From a virus: a stretch of 44,441 bases of DNA. Both the position numbers and the translations under genes were made by a program. Below are positions 12,604 through 44,441 of the stretch, in pieces (positions within the stretch are counted from its first letter, which is position 1; the number at the start of each line of letters is the position of its first letter). The stretch lies in IMG/VR virus record IMGVR_UViG_3300028550_004391, positions 1 to 44,441 of that record. One strand, 5' to 3'. The notes beneath the pieces are model-generated. The model ran no database searches. It was not told the origin of the DNA and saw only the letters and a program-made list of their open reading frames with translations.

Positions 12604-13199
12604 TGCCATTACCAAACCTTAGCGGAAGTAATATACAAGACACCTTTCAAAGGGTGTTGCAAACAGATGGGACCACTATATATGATGGCACAGGATCTGC
12701 TTGGCTGACTGATGCTAACGGCAATGCACCCGACCAAAACGGGGTAGTAAGATATAATAGTTCTGGAAAACTAATTGCAGACAGTGGCTGGACTTTCGGC
12801 ACACATAATGGTAGTGCATCGATTATGCATCTAGAGGCTAACGAAATTAATTTCAAAACTTCAACGGGAATTAACCTAGCAGGGGATATCTCTGCAAGTG
12901 GCATTATTCAAGCAGGTGATATCGTTAACCATTCCAATGCTACTTCGGGTCTTAGATTCAATCCAGCATCAACAGATGTGCTATCTAACCTAATTGTTTC
13001 GGGGTCAATAACAGCATCAGGTGACATAAGTGCAAGTGGAACTATACATTCGCTCAGATATATTGAAGCCGGCACAAATATAAGCTCAATTTATGCTCCC
13101 ATAGCAAGTCCATCATTTACAGGCAACATAACAGCATCGGGAAATATAAGTGCAAGTGGCGACTTATTATTTAATAACATTGACGGAGGAACGTTCTAA
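12603..13199 (+). CDS. Fibre-like virion protein ending in IDGGTF
   Basis: This 198-residue protein has an N-terminal part resembling short phage structural proteins (LSGSNIQDTFQRVLQTDGTT). It then carries repeated shaft-like units: SGSITASGDISASGT, TGNITASGNISASGD and a final NNIDGGTF that matches the ending of the product of 10811. The underlying DNA repeats are nearly identical at 13008 and 13128. It is joined by TAATG overlaps at both ends to 12040 and 13199, implying coupled translation at matched levels. Likely a short fibre or fibre-tip component; inferred from repeats and context. Confidence 0.7.
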   Translation: MPLPNLSGSNIQDTFQRVLQTDGTTIYDGTGSAWLTDANGNAPDQNGVVRYNSSGKLIADSGWTFGTHNGSASIMHLEANEINFKTSTGINLAGDISASGIIQAGDIVNHSNATSGLRFNPASTDVLSNLIVSGSITASGDISASGTIHSLRYIEAGTNISSIYAPIASPSFTGNITASGNISASGDLLFNNIDGGTF

Positions 13200-14797
13200 T
13201 GGCAAACACAATACAACTAAAAAGGGGAACCGGTACTTCCGAACCCTCAAGCCTTGCAGAAGGCGAACTAGCAATCAATCTAGATTCTGGTAAATTATTC
13301 TATGGATCTGGTTCAAGTGTGCTAAGTGACTTTAGATTTGACAAAATAACTGCAGAAACATATGTGATCTCATCATCTGTGACTCATATGACAACATCTT
13401 ATAGTTCTGGTTCAACAGAATTTGGAGACTCAGCTGGAGACACTCATACATTTACAGGGAACATAACAGCATCAGGTAATATAAGTTCAAGTGCCAATGT
13501 ATACGCCGCAGACTATTTCAATGATGGAGCAAACATATCCACAATCTATCAAGCTGCTTTAACTTTTGGAATTGCAGACACAAACGTACTTAGAGCAAAT
13601 GCAAACGTTGCTGATAATGACTTTTTAAGAGTTGATGGTACAAGCATAGAAGGTAGATCTGCAGCTCAAGTTCTAAGTGATATTGGCGCTGCTTCAACGG
13701 ATGCACTGATAGGCCAATCCGCACCAACTGATGGTGCTTTTGTAATCGCTGATGATGGTCGTAGCATGGTAGACTCAGTACTATCTCAAGCAGGTTCAGT
13801 TGTAAGCTCTACTGGACATATAAGTTCAAGTACCAATATATATGCTGCAGACTATTTTGACAACCTAGTAAACATAAATACTATTTATTCTCCTATTGCA
13901 GGACATGGCAACATAGTAACAGTAGGTACAATTACTACAGGAACATGGAACGCAGGAATAATTGCCGAAGGTAAACTTCAAAACCAATCCGGAACAAATA
14001 CTGGTGACGAAGTAGCAGCATCTCTTACTACAGCTGGTGTTGTGGAATTGGCTACCTCTGCTGAAACCAATACCGGTACTGATGCTAATAGAGCAGTCAC
14101 ACCGGACGGACTAGAAGATTGGGAAGGTTCTACCAATGTAACTACCCTTGGTACTATTGCAACAGGTACATGGAACGCAGGAATAATTGCCGAAGGTAAA
14201 CTTCAAAACCAATCCGGAACAAACACCGGCGATGAAGATCTAGCAAGTATAAATGCATTAGACATCACTGAGTTAGGTACTATAAGTAGTGGAGTATGGG
14301 AGGGCACTGTTATTGCAAGTGCTAAACTAGATACAGATACAGCACACTTGACCACTGACCAGACGTTCACCGGTATTAAACAGGTTAACTTAAGAAAATT
14401 CCCTATATCGTCTGGAACAGACGGTAACGCTATAGGCGATGTGGTTTACTTTGGTGGTACTACGTCTATGACAGTTGGTACTATATACCACTACAAATCT
14501 GACGGCACATGGGAGGTGGCAAACGCTAACGCAGTGGCAACATCTGATGGTTTACTTGGCGTTGCTTTAGGAGCGGCTTCTGACACTAATGGAATGCTTT
14601 TAAGAGGTATGGTTACTTTAGACCATGACCCTGGAGCAGTTGGAGACGTTTTGTATTTAAGTAACACTAATGGAGACGCCTCGGCTACTGCCCCATCAGA
14701 TAGTGATGACGTTGTTAGAGTTATAGGTTATTGTTTACATGCAAGTGCTGGTAACATATGGTTTAATCCTGATAGCACATTCGTGGAGATTGCATAA
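13199..14797 (+). CDS. Tail-fibre-like protein with N-terminal KRGTGT/LAEGELAIN module
   Basis: The 532-residue product opens with IQLKRGTGTSEPSSLAEGEL and AINLDSGKLFYG, a module common at the N-termini of phage fibre and tropism proteins. One TASGNISSS unit follows, then two in-frame copies of GTWNAGIIAEGKLQNQSGTN encoded by a 56-base perfect direct repeat (13943-13998 and 14168-14223). The C-terminal 130 residues resemble a conserved fibre-end domain with DGLLGVALGAASDTNGMLLR. GGAGG upstream gives a strong ribosome site, and both ends overlap neighbours by TAATG. Host recognition role inferred from the module architecture. Confidence 0.75.
   Translation: MANTIQLKRGTGTSEPSSLAEGELAINLDSGKLFYGSGSSVLSDFRFDKITAETYVISSSVTHMTTSYSSGSTEFGDSAGDTHTFTGNITASGNISSSANVYAADYFNDGANISTIYQAALTFGIADTNVLRANANVADNDFLRVDGTSIEGRSAAQVLSDIGAASTDALIGQSAPTDGAFVIADDGRSMVDSVLSQAGSVVSSTGHISSSTNIYAADYFDNLVNINTIYSPIAGHGNIVTVGTITTGTWNAGIIAEGKLQNQSGTNTGDEVAASLTTAGVVELATSAETNTGTDANRAVTPDGLEDWEGSTNVTTLGTIATGTWNAGIIAEGKLQNQSGTNTGDEDLASINALDITELGTISSGVWEGTVIASAKLDTDTAHLTTDQTFTGIKQVNLRKFPISSGTDGNAIGDVVYFGGTTSMTVGTIYHYKSDGTWEVANANAVATSDGLLGVALGAASDTNGMLLRGMVTLDHDPGAVGDVLYLSNTNGDASATAPSDSDDVVRVIGYCLHASAGNIWFNPDSTFVEIA
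13943..13998 (+). repeat. 56-bp direct repeat, copy 1
   Basis: Perfect 56-base identity with 14168-14223, starting ACATGGAACGCAGG. The copies are 225 bases (75 codons) apart and in frame inside the fibre gene. Confidence 0.9.
14168..14223 (+). repeat. 56-bp direct repeat, copy 2
   Basis: Second perfect copy of 13943-13998. Flanking codons differ synonymously (ACTGGTGAC against ACCGGCGAT). Confidence 0.9.
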
Positions 14798-15506: not shown

Positions 15507-17402
15507 ATGAAATCAATTAAAGAGGGCGTATATGACCCAAACATATTAAAAGCCATATTTCTAGCAGGTGGTCCTGGATCTGGTAAATCTTATTCAGCTG
15601 AAAACATTTTTGGTGTAGCAGACATAATGAAGTCCACATCAGGTCTAGGTTTAAAGCAAGTGAATTCAGATCCTGCATTTGAAATGTACCTAAAGAAATC
15701 TGGTGTCAATCCCAAAAACTTGGCTAAGATGACAGACAAGGTTTTTAAGTACTACACTGACAATCCTAATGCTGCTCGTCAAAAGGGCCGCCGGATGAAA
15801 GCAAAACTCCAGGCCCTATATGAAGATGGAAAATTAGGTATGGTGTTAGATGGCACAGGAGCTAATTATAGTAAGATCGCCAAACGTAAAGCTAGACTAG
15901 AATCCCAAGGTTATGATTGTTCTATGGTTTTTGTGAACACATCATTGGAGAAAGCCCAGAAACGAAACCTTCAGAGGGACCGGGTGCTACCAGCAGACTT
16001 GCTTGAAAAGAATTGGAAAGATGTCCAAAACAATATGGGCAAGTTCCAATCTCTATTCGGATCTGGCTTTATTATTGTTGATAATACAGAGGATGGTAAT
16101 TTTAGTAAGATGCATGCAGATAAAATTAAAGCTGCTACAAGATTAGTAAAGAGTCCATTGAAAAACCCAATTGGTAGGAAATGGATACAAGATCAGCTAA
16201 AACTAAAATCCCTTGGTGAATCAAAAATCACAAAAGAGCCATTATCTTTAGGAGAGTCTATAGCTTATGCTACACTATTAGAAACAATATCCCAAAAAGA
16301 GTTGGATGCATTTATAATTGAAAGCAATTCAACCAATCTAACAGGTGGCGATGTCGACGACGGACCTACAGCATATTATAATAGCTTAGCTCATTTCAAA
16401 TCTGCATCGAATAAAATGGCTGATCGACTTGGAATGAAAGTTATAGACTACATAATGGACGACGGAGACTTTACGAAATTCAAAGACCCATATTCATCGA
16501 CATCGCCTTCATATTTCCCAGCAGGTCTTCCCGGACAAAACACCCCTTCAAATCCCAAAGACTATAAGGCATCAAAAGCATACGCTTTATGGAAGAAACA
16601 CATAAAGAAAATAGCAGGTAAACTTGGAATTGAATTCCTATCTTTTAAAGATGAGATACCTAGTAAATCTCCCGGAGGTGAAAAAATAGAAGAACCAGAC
16701 ATAGACGATTTCAAATATCTTAAAGAAGGGATTAATGATAAGTACATATTTAAAGCTATATTTTTAGCCGGTGGTCCTGGTTCTGGCAAATCAACTGTAA
16801 TTAATAAGTTATTCAACGACCCATCAGCCAAACAAATAAAAAGTCTGACATCAACAGGCCTTAAGGTTGTTAATCTAGACCAATCACTTGAGTACCTAAA
16901 AAATAAACATAATATCCCTGCAAATTCTGATGATATGACAGATGATGAGAGAAGCCTTGATGGCAAGCTTATGGGTAAGTCTGTTAAGATTGCTAAGAAG
17001 CAATTAGAAAATTATCTAAGTGGTAAGCTCGGAATTATAATAGACGGCACCGGTGCATCCTCAAATGCATTATTCGGAAAAAAGAAAAGTATCGAAGCTT
17101 TGGGGTATGACACTTATATGGTTTATGTTAATACAACACTAGAGACTGCTTTGTCACGAAATGCAAATAGGCCTGAACGTAAATTACTAGATAAGGTAGT
17201 AGAGAGGGTTTGGCAAAAAGTTCATGACAACCTAGATGCATTTAAAAGTGGCTTTGGATCCAACTTCATAAAAGTAGAAGCAGATGGCAATATGATAGAG
17301 AATCTACCTCCAGGAACTAAAGCAGCAGTCATGAAGTTTTTAAAAAAACCCGTAAAAAATAAAGAAGCCCTTAAGTGGATTAAAAAAAGTAAAAGGTTAT
17401 AA
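15507..17402 (+). CDS. Tandem double P-loop kinase (zeta-toxin/polynucleotide-kinase-like), possible head cargo
   Basis: This 631-residue protein contains two homologous P-loop kinase domains. The first has KAIFLAGGPGSGKSYS (Walker A 21-28), later VLDGTGANYSKI and an Arg-rich lid AQKRNLQRDR. The second has KAIFLAGGPGSGKSTV (422-429), IIDGTGASSNAL and ALSRNANRPER. About 190 unrelated residues link them. The order of elements fits zeta-toxin/adenylate-kinase-like phosphotransferases; the substrate is unknown. Each domain is preceded by a similar lead, SIKEGVYD and YLKEGIND, and Ile/Leu-X-Glu before Gly resembles T4 gp21 protease sites. A GATATTTATA motif and AGGAG precede the start. Late expression next to terminase suggests a virion or packaged role (inference). 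Confidence 0.8.
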   Translation: MKSIKEGVYDPNILKAIFLAGGPGSGKSYSAENIFGVADIMKSTSGLGLKQVNSDPAFEMYLKKSGVNPKNLAKMTDKVFKYYTDNPNAARQKGRRMKAKLQALYEDGKLGMVLDGTGANYSKIAKRKARLESQGYDCSMVFVNTSLEKAQKRNLQRDRVLPADLLEKNWKDVQNNMGKFQSLFGSGFIIVDNTEDGNFSKMHADKIKAATRLVKSPLKNPIGRKWIQDQLKLKSLGESKITKEPLSLGESIAYATLLETISQKELDAFIIESNSTNLTGGDVDDGPTAYYNSLAHFKSASNKMADRLGMKVIDYIMDDGDFTKFKDPYSSTSPSYFPAGLPGQNTPSNPKDYKASKAYALWKKHIKKIAGKLGIEFLSFKDEIPSKSPGGEKIEEPDIDDFKYLKEGINDKYIFKAIFLAGGPGSGKSTVINKLFNDPSAKQIKSLTSTGLKVVNLDQSLEYLKNKHNIPANSDDMTDDERSLDGKLMGKSVKIAKKQLENYLSGKLGIIIDGTGASSNALFGKKKSIEALGYDTYMVYVNTTLETALSRNANRPERKLLDKVVERVWQKVHDNLDAFKSGFGSNFIKVEADGNMIENLPPGTKAAVMKFLKKPVKNKEALKWIKKSKRL

Positions 17403-40274: not shown

Positions 40275-42386
40275 ATGGCTGAAAAATTAATAAGCCCCGG
40301 TGTATTTACGCAAGAAAACGATTTGTCATTTGTACCGCAAGGTATTGGTGAAATAGGTGGAGCTATCATAGGCCCTACAGTCAAAGGTCCTGCTCTAATA
40401 CCAACACTAGTATCAAACTATCCAGAATATGTTCAAATGTTTGGCGATACATTCACATCTGGTAGTACAGTAACAGAATACTTAACCTCAATCTCAGCAA
40501 GAGAATACCTAAAGCACTCAGGTGCTTTAACCGTAGTCCGAATCCTCGGAACTAGCTATAGCAATGCATCCCAATCAGTAGCTTCTGCTGGATCTCCAAC
40601 AGGAATATTAAAAGCCTCTGGTTCATCCGTAGTACTTACAGCAAACGAATCTGATACCATTAAGGTAGTTAAAACTGACGGAACAACAATTAACTTTATA
40701 GGTCAATTGAACCCAAGCCCAGACGCATCTGATGATTCAATTAGATTCTTTGATAGAGGGAACTCCACAACGAAGTACGCAGAAAACTTTGCTGCAGAAT
40801 TTAATTCCGTTTCAAGTCTATCTGCATTTACTGCTGATAATACCGGAGCATCTATAGAAGTAACAGCTTCAGCAGCAGGAACAGCTGGAAATCACGTCGG
40901 TGGAAATGGTTTGATCATAACATCAGGTTCATCTGGAGCCCCAACTGCTGCAATGTTTGCCACAGCTGGAGGAACATCAACTGTAGGTACATCAATTACA
41001 TCTTTTGTACTAAATACAATTGCTGATGGTGCATCTATGAATTCTTCAGGTTCAGCAGGTACTAATGATCTATTAACAAATGGGTCAAAAGACAACCTAA
41101 GGTTTGAGATTTCAAATGTATCTGGCAATAAGGGTACATTTACTCTTCTAGTTCGTCGAGGTGATGACACATCTAAACGTAAAACTATTTTAGAAACTTG
41201 GTCAGGTCTAAGTCTTGATCCAAACCAGCCAAACTTTATTAGTAAAATGATTGGAGATCAATACCAAACTATAGCTCAAGACGGTGGAGTTTACCTACAA
41301 CCAAAAGGTAACTACCCAAACAAGTCAAAGTATGTCTATGTTTCTGAAGTCAATGAAATACCAGACTACCTTGATGCTAATGGAGCAACAAGTTCAGCAG
41401 CTAATGCCGGACAACTTCCAGAAGCAGCAACAGGAACTTTTACAGGAGGTAGTGATGGTGGTAAAGTTAATCCAGCTTTATACTTTGATAAAATGATCGC
41501 AGCAAACATCCAAGGATTAAACCCTGGATCACCTGCCAATGGTCAAACTTCGTATGAAAATGCAATAGACCTACTAACTAATGCCGATGAGTATGATATC
41601 AATATGATTTCAATGCCAGGTTTAACTACTAGAGACCATTCTGCATTAACCAACAAGCTAATTACTGCTTGTGAAACAAGAGGTGATTGCTTTGCTGTTA
41701 TTGATCCTACATTAGCTTCTCAAAATATCTCAGTAGCCACAGGACAAGGTGAATTACTCGACTCAAGCTATGCAGCTATGTATTGGCCTTGGGTACAGAC
41801 ATCAGCAAATGGCAAATTCGTATGGGTTCCACCATCAACTCTTATTCCTGGTATTTATGCCTTTAATGATAAAGTTGCTGCTGAATGGTATGCTCCTGCA
41901 GGTCTTAACCGAGGTGGTTTAGAAACTGTAGTTCAAGCAGAGCGTAAGCTAACACATGCAAACCGTGACACTTTATACGAGGACAATATTAATCCTCTAG
42001 CAACATTCCCAGGAGAAGGCGTTTGCGTATGGGGTCAAAAGACTCTTCAGAAAAAAGCTTCTGCTCTTGATCGTGTGAATGTACGTCGATTATTAATCAA
42101 TCTTAAGAAATTCATAGCTAGTACTTCTAAATACCTTGTATTCGAGAACAACACAGCAGCTACTCGCAATAGATTCCTAGGTTCAGTTAATCCATATATG
42201 GAATCTGTTCAACAAAACCAAGGTCTATATGCATTTAAAGTAGTTATGGACGAGTCTAACAACACTCCAGATCTTATCGATAGAAATATCATGAAAGGAG
42301 AGATTTTCTTACAACCTGCAAAAGCTGCAGAGTTTATCGTAGTTGACTTTAACATCATGCCAACTGGCGCAACTTTCGAAGACTAA
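40275..42386 (+). CDS. 18: Tail sheath protein, gp18-like
   Basis: The 703-residue contractile sheath subunit has a characteristic N-terminus (LISPGVFTQENDLSFVPQGI, GEIGGAIIGPTVKGPALIPT) and a conserved C-terminal region. That region includes MYWPWVQTSANGKFVWVPPS, VAAEWYAPAGLNRGGLETVV, DTLYEDNINPLATFPGEGVC and WGQKTLQKKASALDRVNVRR. It is similar in size to T4 gp18 (659). The middle third (about residues 100-260) is Ser/Ala/Gly-rich and poorly conserved, as expected of the outer protrusion domain. AGGAG with good spacing and an upstream motif fit high late expression. Confidence 0.95.
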   Translation: MAEKLISPGVFTQENDLSFVPQGIGEIGGAIIGPTVKGPALIPTLVSNYPEYVQMFGDTFTSGSTVTEYLTSISAREYLKHSGALTVVRILGTSYSNASQSVASAGSPTGILKASGSSVVLTANESDTIKVVKTDGTTINFIGQLNPSPDASDDSIRFFDRGNSTTKYAENFAAEFNSVSSLSAFTADNTGASIEVTASAAGTAGNHVGGNGLIITSGSSGAPTAAMFATAGGTSTVGTSITSFVLNTIADGASMNSSGSAGTNDLLTNGSKDNLRFEISNVSGNKGTFTLLVRRGDDTSKRKTILETWSGLSLDPNQPNFISKMIGDQYQTIAQDGGVYLQPKGNYPNKSKYVYVSEVNEIPDYLDANGATSSAANAGQLPEAATGTFTGGSDGGKVNPALYFDKMIAANIQGLNPGSPANGQTSYENAIDLLTNADEYDINMISMPGLTTRDHSALTNKLITACETRGDCFAVIDPTLASQNISVATGQGELLDSSYAAMYWPWVQTSANGKFVWVPPSTLIPGIYAFNDKVAAEWYAPAGLNRGGLETVVQAERKLTHANRDTLYEDNINPLATFPGEGVCVWGQKTLQKKASALDRVNVRRLLINLKKFIASTSKYLVFENNTAATRNRFLGSVNPYMESVQQNQGLYAFKVVMDESNNTPDLIDRNIMKGEIFLQPAKAAEFIVVDFNIMPTGATFED

Positions 42387-42414: not shown

Positions 42415-42909
42415 ATGGCAAATTTAATAGACCCAACAGAACTGATGCACACTAATTTTGAACCTAAGGTTGCAAATAGGTTTATCATGTATGTTGACGG
42501 AATACCATCATATCTTATACGCAAGTGCCCAAGGCCTAGTATTAGTAATGGTGAAACTGCAATCAAGCATATGAACACTACTAGATACATTAAAGGTAGG
42601 TCAGAATGGGATGCAATATCAGGCATGGAACTTTACGATCCAATTGTTCCGTCTGGAGCACAAGCCGTTATGGAATGGGTAAGACTACATCACGAATCAG
42701 TTACTGGCCGAAATGGCTATTCTGATATGTATAAAAAGGATATAACAATCAATGTGTTGGGTCCAGTAGGTGATAAGGTTGAAGAATGGAATCTTAAAGG
42801 TGCTTTTATAACAAAAGCAACATTTGGAGATTTATCATATGAAGAGGACGGAACTCCTCTAATGATTTCACTAGACATTAGATATGATCACGCTATCTTA
42901 CAATACTAA
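42415..42909 (+). CDS. 19: Tail tube protein, gp19-like
   Basis: The 164-residue product matches T4 gp19 in size (163). Its pattern includes EPKVANRFIMYVDGIPSYLI, RKCPRPSISNGETAIKHMNT, YIKGRSEWDAISGMELYDPI and AFITKATFGDLSYEEDGTPL. Hexamers stack to form the inner tube. AAGGAG lies ahead of the ATG, and the gene has its own GATATTTATA motif. The sheath-then-tube order is as in T4. Confidence 0.95.
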   Translation: MANLIDPTELMHTNFEPKVANRFIMYVDGIPSYLIRKCPRPSISNGETAIKHMNTTRYIKGRSEWDAISGMELYDPIVPSGAQAVMEWVRLHHESVTGRNGYSDMYKKDITINVLGPVGDKVEEWNLKGAFITKATFGDLSYEEDGTPLMISLDIRYDHAILQY

Positions 42910-43182: not shown

Positions 43183-43206
43183 ATAACCCTAAATAATATA
43201 TTTAAG

Positions 43207-43231
43207 AAAGGCTCCTCAGGGAGCTTTTTTT
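43207..43231 (+). terminator. Intrinsic terminator after tube unit
   Basis: Stem AAAGGCTCC (43207-43215) and GGAGCTTTT (43220-43228), with one G-T pair, 4-base TCAG loop and a T run. It is followed at once by a promoter-like motif. Confidence 0.85.
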
Positions 43232-43239
43232 ATTGCTAT

Positions 43240-43248
43240 ATATTTATA
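43240..43248 (+). promoter_or_regulatory. Late-promoter-like motif TATATTTATA
   Basis: TATATATTTATATA, 9 bases after the terminator and 28 bases before the ATG at 43277. Confidence 0.6.
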
Positions 43249-43276
43249 TATACGAACCTCAAAAGGAACCTAAATT

Positions 43277-44149
43277 ATGAATAAAGTTACAGATGATTAC
43301 CCAGGCAAAGCCCTATCCACAGACGACCTAAAACAACAACTTGCAAATGAGTCTAATACGACTCTGATTAAAGAGTCTAAATTTCCAACAGAAATCATAG
43401 ACCTTCCAAGCGGAGGAACATTATATCCTGAACATAGTGCATTATCGTCAGGTAAGGTTGAAATGAAGTATATGACTGCTAAAGAAGAAGACATCCTAAC
43501 ATCTTCTAATCTAATCCAAAAAGGCTTAGTTATTGACACACTACTTAGAGCTCTGATCGTAAGTAATGGTGAAGGTAAATCTGTAAACTATAACGACTTA
43601 GTTACCGGAGATAAGAATGCAATCATGGTAGCAGCAAGAGTGCTAGGATATGGTGCTGAATATCCAGTAGAATTGGCTTGTCCTGCATGTGGCGCTAAAC
43701 ATAAACAAAATGTCGATTTAACATCTTTAGAAAATAAAATTCTAGAAGGCGATGCCCCAGACAGTGAAGGTCGATTTACATTTAAACTTCCAATAGCTAA
43801 AAAAACCTTAACATTTAAAATTCTAACTCACGCTGACGAAAAGCTAGTTGAAGCAGAAGCAAAAAGAATGAAAAAAAAGAAGGTTGGTGGCAACGGAGTA
43901 ACATATGAACTAACCAGTCGGTTTAAATATATGATTGTAGCTATAGATGGTGAAGAAGACAAAACGGAAATTAGATCGTTTGTTGATAATGAATTTTTAT
44001 CTAGAGATTCTTTAGCATTTCGTCAGTACTTAGACACAGTATCCCCCGACGTAGACATGACGATTGACTTTGAATGTGAAAGCTGTGGTCACGAAGATCC
44101 AACAGTTCAAATGCCAATGAACGTCCAATTTTTTTGGCCTAGGGCTTGA
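43277..44149 (+). CDS. 26: Baseplate protein, gp26-like, with zinc-finger pairs
   Basis: This 290-residue protein has IIDLPSGGTLYPEHSAL and KVEMKYMTAKEEDILTS, the signature of T4-type baseplate gp26 proteins. A Cys4 zinc site is split into LACPACGAKH and FECESCGHE. The C-terminus is NVQFFWPRA. It is longer than T4 gp26 (208). The gene product acts in baseplate hub assembly. Immediately before its stop is a run of seven T, at which a +1 shift would extend the protein by about 80 residues (see the next entry). AAGGA precedes the ATG. Confidence 0.87.
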   Translation: MNKVTDDYPGKALSTDDLKQQLANESNTTLIKESKFPTEIIDLPSGGTLYPEHSALSSGKVEMKYMTAKEEDILTSSNLIQKGLVIDTLLRALIVSNGEGKSVNYNDLVTGDKNAIMVAARVLGYGAEYPVELACPACGAKHKQNVDLTSLENKILEGDAPDSEGRFTFKLPIAKKTLTFKILTHADEKLVEAEAKRMKKKKVGGNGVTYELTSRFKYMIVAIDGEEDKTEIRSFVDNEFLSRDSLAFRQYLDTVSPDVDMTIDFECESCGHEDPTVQMPMNVQFFWPRA

Positions 44150-44378
44150 TTACAAGCCCATTCTGCACAAACAAATCTTTGAGATAGCATACCATTCTCA
44201 AGGTGCATTTACGCACACTGATGTCTACACCCTTCCAGTATACCTAAGAACTTTTTATTATAAGACCCTGTCAGATCAGTTGAAAAAAGAGGCGGAAGCT
44301 CAGGAAAAAGCAAGTAAGGGAAAATCATCTAGGACACCTCCCCCAAGATATCCTAATTCAACCAAAACTCCAAATTAG
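44121..44378 (+). CDS. 51: gp51-like extension, reached by +1 frameshift from gp26
   Basis: A frame shifted +1 to the gp26-like gene is open from 44121 to the TAG at 44376-44378. It has no ATG or GTG, and its first TTG (44280) is near the middle. From the T7 run onward it encodes GLGLDYKPILHKQIFEIAYH, then SQGAFTHTDVYTLPVYLRTF and YYKTLSDQLKKEAEAQEKAS. The LPVYLRTFYYK pattern matches tail/baseplate assembly chaperone-type sequences, and T4 gene 51 follows gene 26. Zero-frame codons are CAA TTT TTT TGG; slipping TTT by +1 keeps pairing. The fusion would be about 366 residues. A homopolymer sequencing error is the main alternative. Confidence 0.65.
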   Translation, partial: TSNFFGLGLDYKPILHKQIFEIAYHSQGAFTHTDVYTLPVYLRTFYYKTLSDQLKKEAEAQEKASKGKSSRTPPPRYPNSTKTPN

Positions 44379-44389: not shown

Positions 44390-44416
44390 CTTGAATAGAT
44401 CTACATAGGAGTAGCC

Positions 44417-44441
44417 ATGGATAATGAGAAAAAACTTAGAA
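44417..44441 (+). CDS. Start of a further late gene, 3'-partial
   Basis: An ATG with AGGAG 6 bases upstream and a GATATTTATA motif further up opens a frame reading MDNEKKLR before the window ends. Only eight codons are visible, so no identity can be given. Its position after gp26/gp51-like genes suggests another baseplate or tail gene. Confidence 0.5.

Follow-up and report, generated by a model that had tools for sequence, protein, structure and literature searches.

We report a gp26-type gene in which a programmed +1 ribosomal frameshift would generate two chaperones from one gene, as in the lambda G/GT system, and we put the probability of this full reading at about 0.87. In a marine T4-type phage and hundreds of its relatives, a one-base slip at a run of T residues is predicted to produce a longer gp26-51 chaperone in addition to gp26. 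The DNA analyzed (44,441 nucleotides, hereafter the window) is a virus fragment from IMG/VR (IMGVR_UViG_3300028550_004391), with the gp26-type gene located near its end. Frameshifting of tail chaperones is known as a kind, while the protein family, the +1 motif, the direction switches and the link to T4 described below are new to our knowledge. A search of the open-access literature, with subscription journals and preprints outside its scope, returned no report of frameshifting for gp26/gp51 or for the hub assembly catalyst.

The gp26-type gene spans positions 43277..44149 on the plus strand, as do all features of this locus, and encodes a zero-frame product of 290 aa ending in NVQFFWPRA. By its matches to Pfam PF12322 (T4_baseplate; E 5e-15, 56.2 bits against a curated cut-off of 24.5) and PHROG phrog_150 (baseplate hub; E 3.5e-17), it belongs to the gp26/gp51 family of T4. 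The gene ends in CAA TTT TTT TGG CCT AGG GCT TGA, with the TGA stop at 44147-44149, and the seven T of the putative slip site occupy 44129..44135, where TTT (44132-44134) would be the P-site codon and TGG (44135-44137) the A-site codon. The +1 frame is open from 44121 to 44378 (85 codons), and its first ATT and CTG codons lie 13 and 16 nt past the first base of the gp26 stop, within the conserved region. The first-pass annotation had described this overlapping frame without a start codon, the seven T in the frame CAA TTT TTT TGG, a gp26 ending in FFWPRA and a 366-residue fusion after slippage. All of this was borne out, TTG starts being absent as well as usable ATG and GTG, except that the open frame begins upstream of the shift: the part read after it is the extension at 44136..44378, an 80-aa gp51-type tail lacking a start codon and ending at a TAG stop (44376-44378). 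The predicted fusion gp26-51 (43277..44378, 366 aa) was obtained by translation with one base skipped. Upstream are genes for the tail sheath (40275..42386; PF04984, E 1.3e-15) and a gp19-type tail tube (42415..42909; PF06841, E 2.1e-5, below the family cut-off), and the next gene starts downstream (44417..44441), with AGGAG at 44407-44411 and ATG at 44417.

Several other features of the window were recorded. The window gp26 has two CxxC pairs (CPACG and CESCG, residues ~135-139 and 268-272) resembling a zinc ribbon, which are absent from many relatives; T4 gp51 has a CxxC (CPKC). Between a small 86-aa gene and gp26 (43183-43276), a hairpin followed by a T run resembles a terminator, and the AT-rich stretch TATATATTTATATATA in the same region could be a late promoter; Bacillus phage SP-15 has an annotated terminator at the matching place. 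Elsewhere, 15507-17402 encodes a 631-aa protein in which a P-loop kinase/zeta-toxin-type domain covers residues 416-580 and the N-terminal half has no assignment, and 13199-14797 a 532-aa protein, possibly a tail fibre or variable protein, with a weak match, below cut-off, to PF18454 (major tropism determinant N-terminal domain).

Viral contigs gave at least 587 stretches with gp26 homologs. In a first scan of viral contigs yielding 80 loci, nearly all gp26 genes ended with TTTTTTTGGCCT in the same phase, and in nearly all a +1 frame roughly 60-90 aa long came next. After further viral and genome contigs had been added, both parts were found in 173 loci, with the extension in +1 in 171 and in -1 in two; a natural in-frame fusion of gp26 and extension was sought among these loci, and none was found (0 in frame 0). 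Isolates with the arrangement include Flavobacterium phage immuto, Microcystis phage Mel-JY01 and Rhodothermus phage RM378, and gp26 plus extension were also found in Bacillus phage SP-15 and Listeria phage LIS04; in the Mel-JY01 annotation the overlapping frame is a separate hypothetical gene starting from TTG. As the window comes from a metagenome and homopolymer runs are error-prone, faulty assembly or sequencing could be suspected, as could gene decay; the same frame relation recurs in the 171 loci and in isolate genomes, with strong coding conservation on both sides of the slip site, and the probability of such an error or decay is practically nil. The alignment proposed in the first-pass annotation showed the conserved T run and shift, with the nonamer TTTTTTTGG at the slip position in 106 of 125 non-identical junctions. 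The possibility raised there of a run of really six or eight T fails, as run length and frame recur in independent metagenomes and isolates.

The same gp26 and +1 extension also occur on GTDB contigs (L096-L105) binned to Flavobacteriales, Winogradskyella, Halobacteriovorax, Methylococcaceae and a Woesearchaeota bin; these contigs are probably phage, and the likely hosts are mostly Bacteroidota. The phages GXN1, LIS04 and SP-15 (L005, L006 and L007), which have Gram-positive hosts, carry a +1 frame after gp26 as well, with other putative sites (TTT C, TTT A) and a common CCC GAT in the +1 frame.

Codon usage at the site was compared across 28 representatives with <80% amino-acid identity to each other. 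At the two slip-site Phe positions all 55 Phe cells (55/55) read TTT, with immuto having CTT at the second slip codon, and the following Pro codon is CCT in 28/28, while six other conserved Phe columns have TTT in 116 of 159 cells and all other conserved, degenerate codons vary. The Phe-codon bias has a p of about 3e-8, computed as if the representatives were independent, so that shared ancestry makes it overstate the case. The T of CCT is needed by the Leu codon of the +1 frame, whereas the third bases of both slip TTT codons are explained by the protein of neither frame. Judged by these codons, the slip sequence is conserved beyond protein need, as in programmed frameshifting. A role for the CCT AGG codons of the window was considered and rejected because AGG is not conserved.

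The remaining 19 of the 125 junctions are conservative variants (10 TTTCTTTGG, 5 TTTTTTTAC, 2 TTTCTTTAC, 1 TTTTTTTTC and 1 TTCTTTTGG), all of which keep (U/C)UU_U. At every site the P-site codon is (U/C)UU with U as the next base, so that its tRNA can re-pair on UUU after a +1 step. A -2 slip within the T run would lead into the same frame and add one Phe; with seven T, the -2 step also re-pairs fully, the site of the window included, and -2 shifting is known in phage Mu (PMC5009743). However, in L165 (TTC TTT TGG) and Streptococcus phage GXN1 (TTC TTT CGT) a -2 step lands on a UCU mismatch while +1 re-pairs, and in L004 (AAC TTT CTA) +1 gives UUC and -2 gives ACU, with re-pairing only after +1, so we regard the -2 slip as very unlikely. 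Transcriptional slippage at the T run, giving a mixed mRNA pool on which ribosomes do not shift, would fit a homopolymer at the slip site, and RNA polymerase slippage at such runs is known for other genes. Because the variants TTTCTTTGG and TTCTTTTGG break the T run, this explanation is disfavored and a +1 shift on (U/C)UU_U favored. In addition, 13 of the 125 non-identical sites (TTTCTTTGG, TTCTTTTGG and TTTCTTTAC) have a run of just three or four T, an eighth T on the 5' side of the run never occurs among the 125, the A_AAT_TTC sites of the -1 lineages contain no long run, and RNA hairpins lie at ribosome-type distances from the slip site, all of which leaves polymerase slippage scarcely credible.

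Conservation in frame 0 extends as far as the Phe pair, with a stop four codons past TGG in 23/28 representatives, and the +1 frame is dissimilar among relatives before the slip site and conserved from FFGL onward. In this comparison, frame-0 conservation hands over to +1 conservation exactly at the slip site (FFG). The programmed +1 frameshift joining a gp26-like and a gp51-like frame, as originally proposed, is supported by this junction together with the conserved slip codons. Alternatively, the extension could be a separate small gene with a non-standard start or reinitiation after the gp26 stop, as possible starts exist in some relatives: Cygsa01 has a TAATG overlap, and most cyanophages have an ATG 5-14 nt past the end of the gp26 reading frame, where reinitiation is possible. 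However, the +1 clade has no conserved start: 14 of the 28 representatives are free of ATG, GTG and TTG through codon +8 of the +1 frame, and in the other 14 the starts lie at scattered positions. Conservation of the extension sets in at the slip site, an invariant TTT TTT TGG would be unnecessary for a separate gene, and 10 of 84 cyanophage loci likewise lack a start, which makes a separate gene highly improbable. The independent starts that the first-pass annotation had named as counter-evidence do occur outside the window clade, in S-SCSM1, Cygsa01 and many cyanophages with a possible ATG, but these are other lineages, mostly with a -1 heptamer.

The site is flanked by predicted RNA structure. 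In the window, a 3' stem-loop, GGGCTTG-ATTA-CAAGCCC (44142..44159), pairs 44142-44148 with 44153-44159 and begins 7 nt after the P-site codon, and the gp26 stop (TGA) reaches from the end of its 5' arm into the loop, of which it takes the first base. Across 19 aligned sequences, those of the window and relatives, 98.4% of cells are paired and 17 cells carry changes on both sides; none of 500 shuffles was as good, and slid pairings reached at most 58%. By this covariation, the stem is a predicted stimulatory RNA element of the window clade. When 70 representatives were compared with synonymous-codon shuffles that kept the amino acids, excess structure was found directly upstream of the site (mean z of -1.32) and directly downstream (mean z of -1.35); upstream controls were near zero, downstream ones weaker and uneven (0 to -0.9). 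Structure was present only before the site in 23, only after it in 26, on both sides in 4 and on neither in 17 of these representatives (Fisher p 1.8e-4, with kinship ignored), and the 5' hairpin and 3' stem thus seem to replace each other between lineages. Such an apparent exchange of stimulators would offer a ready test set for the workings of +1 shifting.

In the two loci with a -1 extension, L155 and L180, TTC TTC replaces TTT TTT, A_AAT_TTC stands in the right phase for -1, and no start precedes the conserved part. In the gp26 tree these two pair with full support and are nested among +1 phages; on this topology, two lineages among the +1 phages have switched to -1. In cyanophages and Pelagibacter phage HTVC008M, the gene next to gp26, in the -1 frame, goes by the name gp51 or baseplate hub assembly catalyst, and T_TTT_TTC is found in the right phase in 83 of 84 non-identical cyanophage-type junctions, the exception being HTVC008M with a longer T run; a -1 frame of at least 45 codons is present in 83 of the 84. 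The cyanophage slip Phe codons are TTT (31/31) then TTC (30/31), with other Phe columns mixed. At the tail position no gene is annotated in S-CAM1, S-WAM1, S-SSM6b, ACG-2014d and ACG-2014i. Two loci of this wider family are unusual. Synechococcus phage S-SCSM1 (L091, 3150-3374) keeps T_TTT_TTC, its -1 frame has stops, and its gp51 tail lies in +1 with its own ATG, as a result of a sequencing indel or a real switch. HTVC008M (L192, 970-986) has a run of eight T followed at once by the final AA of the gp26 stop TAA, and its tail is in -1 without a start, possibly a mix of ribosomal and transcriptional slippage. As shift direction has been observed to be conserved among orthologues (PMC3711429), an orthologous shift that changes direction would form a natural series contrary to that observation.

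The kinship of the extension with gp51, guessed at first from the sequence, gained support from profile comparison with cyanophage gp51. The window extension alone gave no hit at E<=0.001 against phages, PHROGs and Pfam, and none to gp51; single-sequence matches of the extension to the gp51-type tail were weak (best E 0.011). In contrast, the profile of the +1-clade tail matched that of cyanophage gp51 with 93.6% probability (P 2e-7), colinear over 62 columns, while controls with shuffled columns reached at most 0.5%. By this match the +1-clade tail is homologous to the cyanophage tail (phrog_634, baseplate hub assembly catalyst). Compared directly with T4 gp51, the window-clade extension profile was negative, and an HMM of the fused cyanophage protein did not hit T4 gp51 although the curated Pfam and PHROG profiles match it strongly. 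T4 gp26 is a PF12322 protein (E 8.8e-64), while T4 gp51 has PF12322 in residues 1-201 (E 3.9e-52) followed by a tail matching phrog_634 (E 1.2e-23), of which residues 211-246 align with the cyanophage tail in the profile comparison. By domain content, T4 gp26 thus corresponds to the zero-frame product and T4 gp51 to the shifted one, so that T4 would hold as two genes what its relatives make from one. The two T4 proteins pair in the tree (98/85), although the long branches call for caution. Cyanophage gp51 has been described as lacking the first 200 residues (Sullivan et al., PMC3037559), and on the frameshift reading these missing residues would be gp26.

With respect to function, T4 gp26 and gp51 are listed as hub-assembly chaperones, gp51 being required and absent from the final particle (PMC3004832). 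Gene order in relatives is sheath-tube-gp26-tail-tape measure; the gene is annotated between tail tube and tape measure in immuto, LIS04 and SP-15, with the tape measure following, and in the near relative L011 a 99-aa frame precedes one of 647 aa or more, a candidate tape-measure gene by its position. This order puts the gp26 gene where G/GT sits in lambda, after the tail tube and ahead of the tape measure. The first-pass parallel with lambda-type chaperones stands, while its term "baseplate pair" is better replaced by "tail-assembly chaperone pair" because the gene sits between the tube and tape-measure positions. In T4-type phages, the gp26 and gp26-51 products are best read as a tail-assembly chaperone pair of the lambda G/GT kind. 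The two parts were folded separately. The gp26 model (pLDDT 79) matched its own family in BFVD, including SP-15, and had no significant match in the PDB, where the HK97 chaperone gp13 (2ob9) ranked second at a non-significant E of 1.7 (probability 0.23). The extension was modeled as three helices (pLDDT 83); its fold search gave nothing at E<=0.001, the best match being a 57-aa protein of phage pf16 (probability 0.90). A PDB sequence search with the fusion profile and a nucleotide-level search of phages gave no match.

Based on these comparisons, the following mechanism is proposed. Most ribosomes would stop at the TGA and yield gp26 (290 aa), whereas a fraction, paused with peptidyl-tRNA-Phe at the second UUU while UGG occupies the A site, would slip +1 onto the overlapping UUU and continue in the +1 frame to give gp26-51 (366 aa), which would share its N-terminus with gp26. 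An RNA hairpin just 3' of the slip site in the window, or just 5' of it in other lineages, would aid the shift. The part common to both products may hold the tape-measure protein, as in lambda gpG/gpGT, while the extension may recruit another tail part, and the ratio of the products would set the ordered assembly of tail and hub. The shift itself, its efficiency, the +1 rather than -2 step in the window phage and the binding partners are what we infer from sequence.

Conservation of lambda G-GT shifting has been described for long-tailed phages, with T4 as the exception (PMC5009743), and on our reading T4 relatives would have the G/GT-type shift that T4 was said to lack. We consider it fairly probable that gp26/gp51 is the G/GT of the T4 superfamily, originally a single gene with a programmed shift at a terminal Phe-Phe, in which direction (+1 or -1) and stimulators (3' stem or 5' hairpin) changed over time while shifting persisted, and in whose place T4 has a duplicated gene. 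If true, this would explain both the "T4 exception" and the truncated cyanophage gp51, and the two T4 chaperone genes look like two shift products fixed by duplication. The frameshift would also correct the annotation of many marine phage genomes.

Compared with known systems, the arrangement resembles lambda gpG/gpGT in the shared N-terminus, a shift near the gene end and a gene between tail tube and tape measure, and the T4 counterparts of the window pair are assembly factors; unlike lambda, which shifts -1, the shift here would be +1 at UUU_UGG, and the window family (PF12322, 290 aa) is unrelated, with no significant fold match. T4 gp26 and gp51 belong to the same family, with PF12322 alone and PF12322 plus tail, respectively, but T4 uses two separate genes and no shift, whereas the window has one gene for both. 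The cyanophage gp26 and phrog_634 genes are homologous to the window gp26 and tail and likewise adjacent in shifted frames; they differ in the -1 heptamer T_TTT_TTC and are annotated as separate genes, or the tail is unannotated. The bacterial prfB (release factor 2) site, YTT_TRA_C (PMC3711429), is similar in that a P-site YUU re-pairs on UUU after +1, as in all main-clade variants, and its 5' duplex stimulator recalls the 5' hairpin of some lineages here; however, the prfB A site holds a stop, here replaced by a sense codon (UGG, UAC or UUC), and the stimulators here are mRNA hairpins rather than a Shine-Dalgarno duplex. Finally, SPP1 gp17.5/17.5* is a tail chaperone pair made by a -1 shift at UUUUUUC, the same heptamer as in cyanophages (PMC6316719), although SPP1 is a siphovirus with different proteins and its shift is -1, in contrast to the +1 of the window clade.
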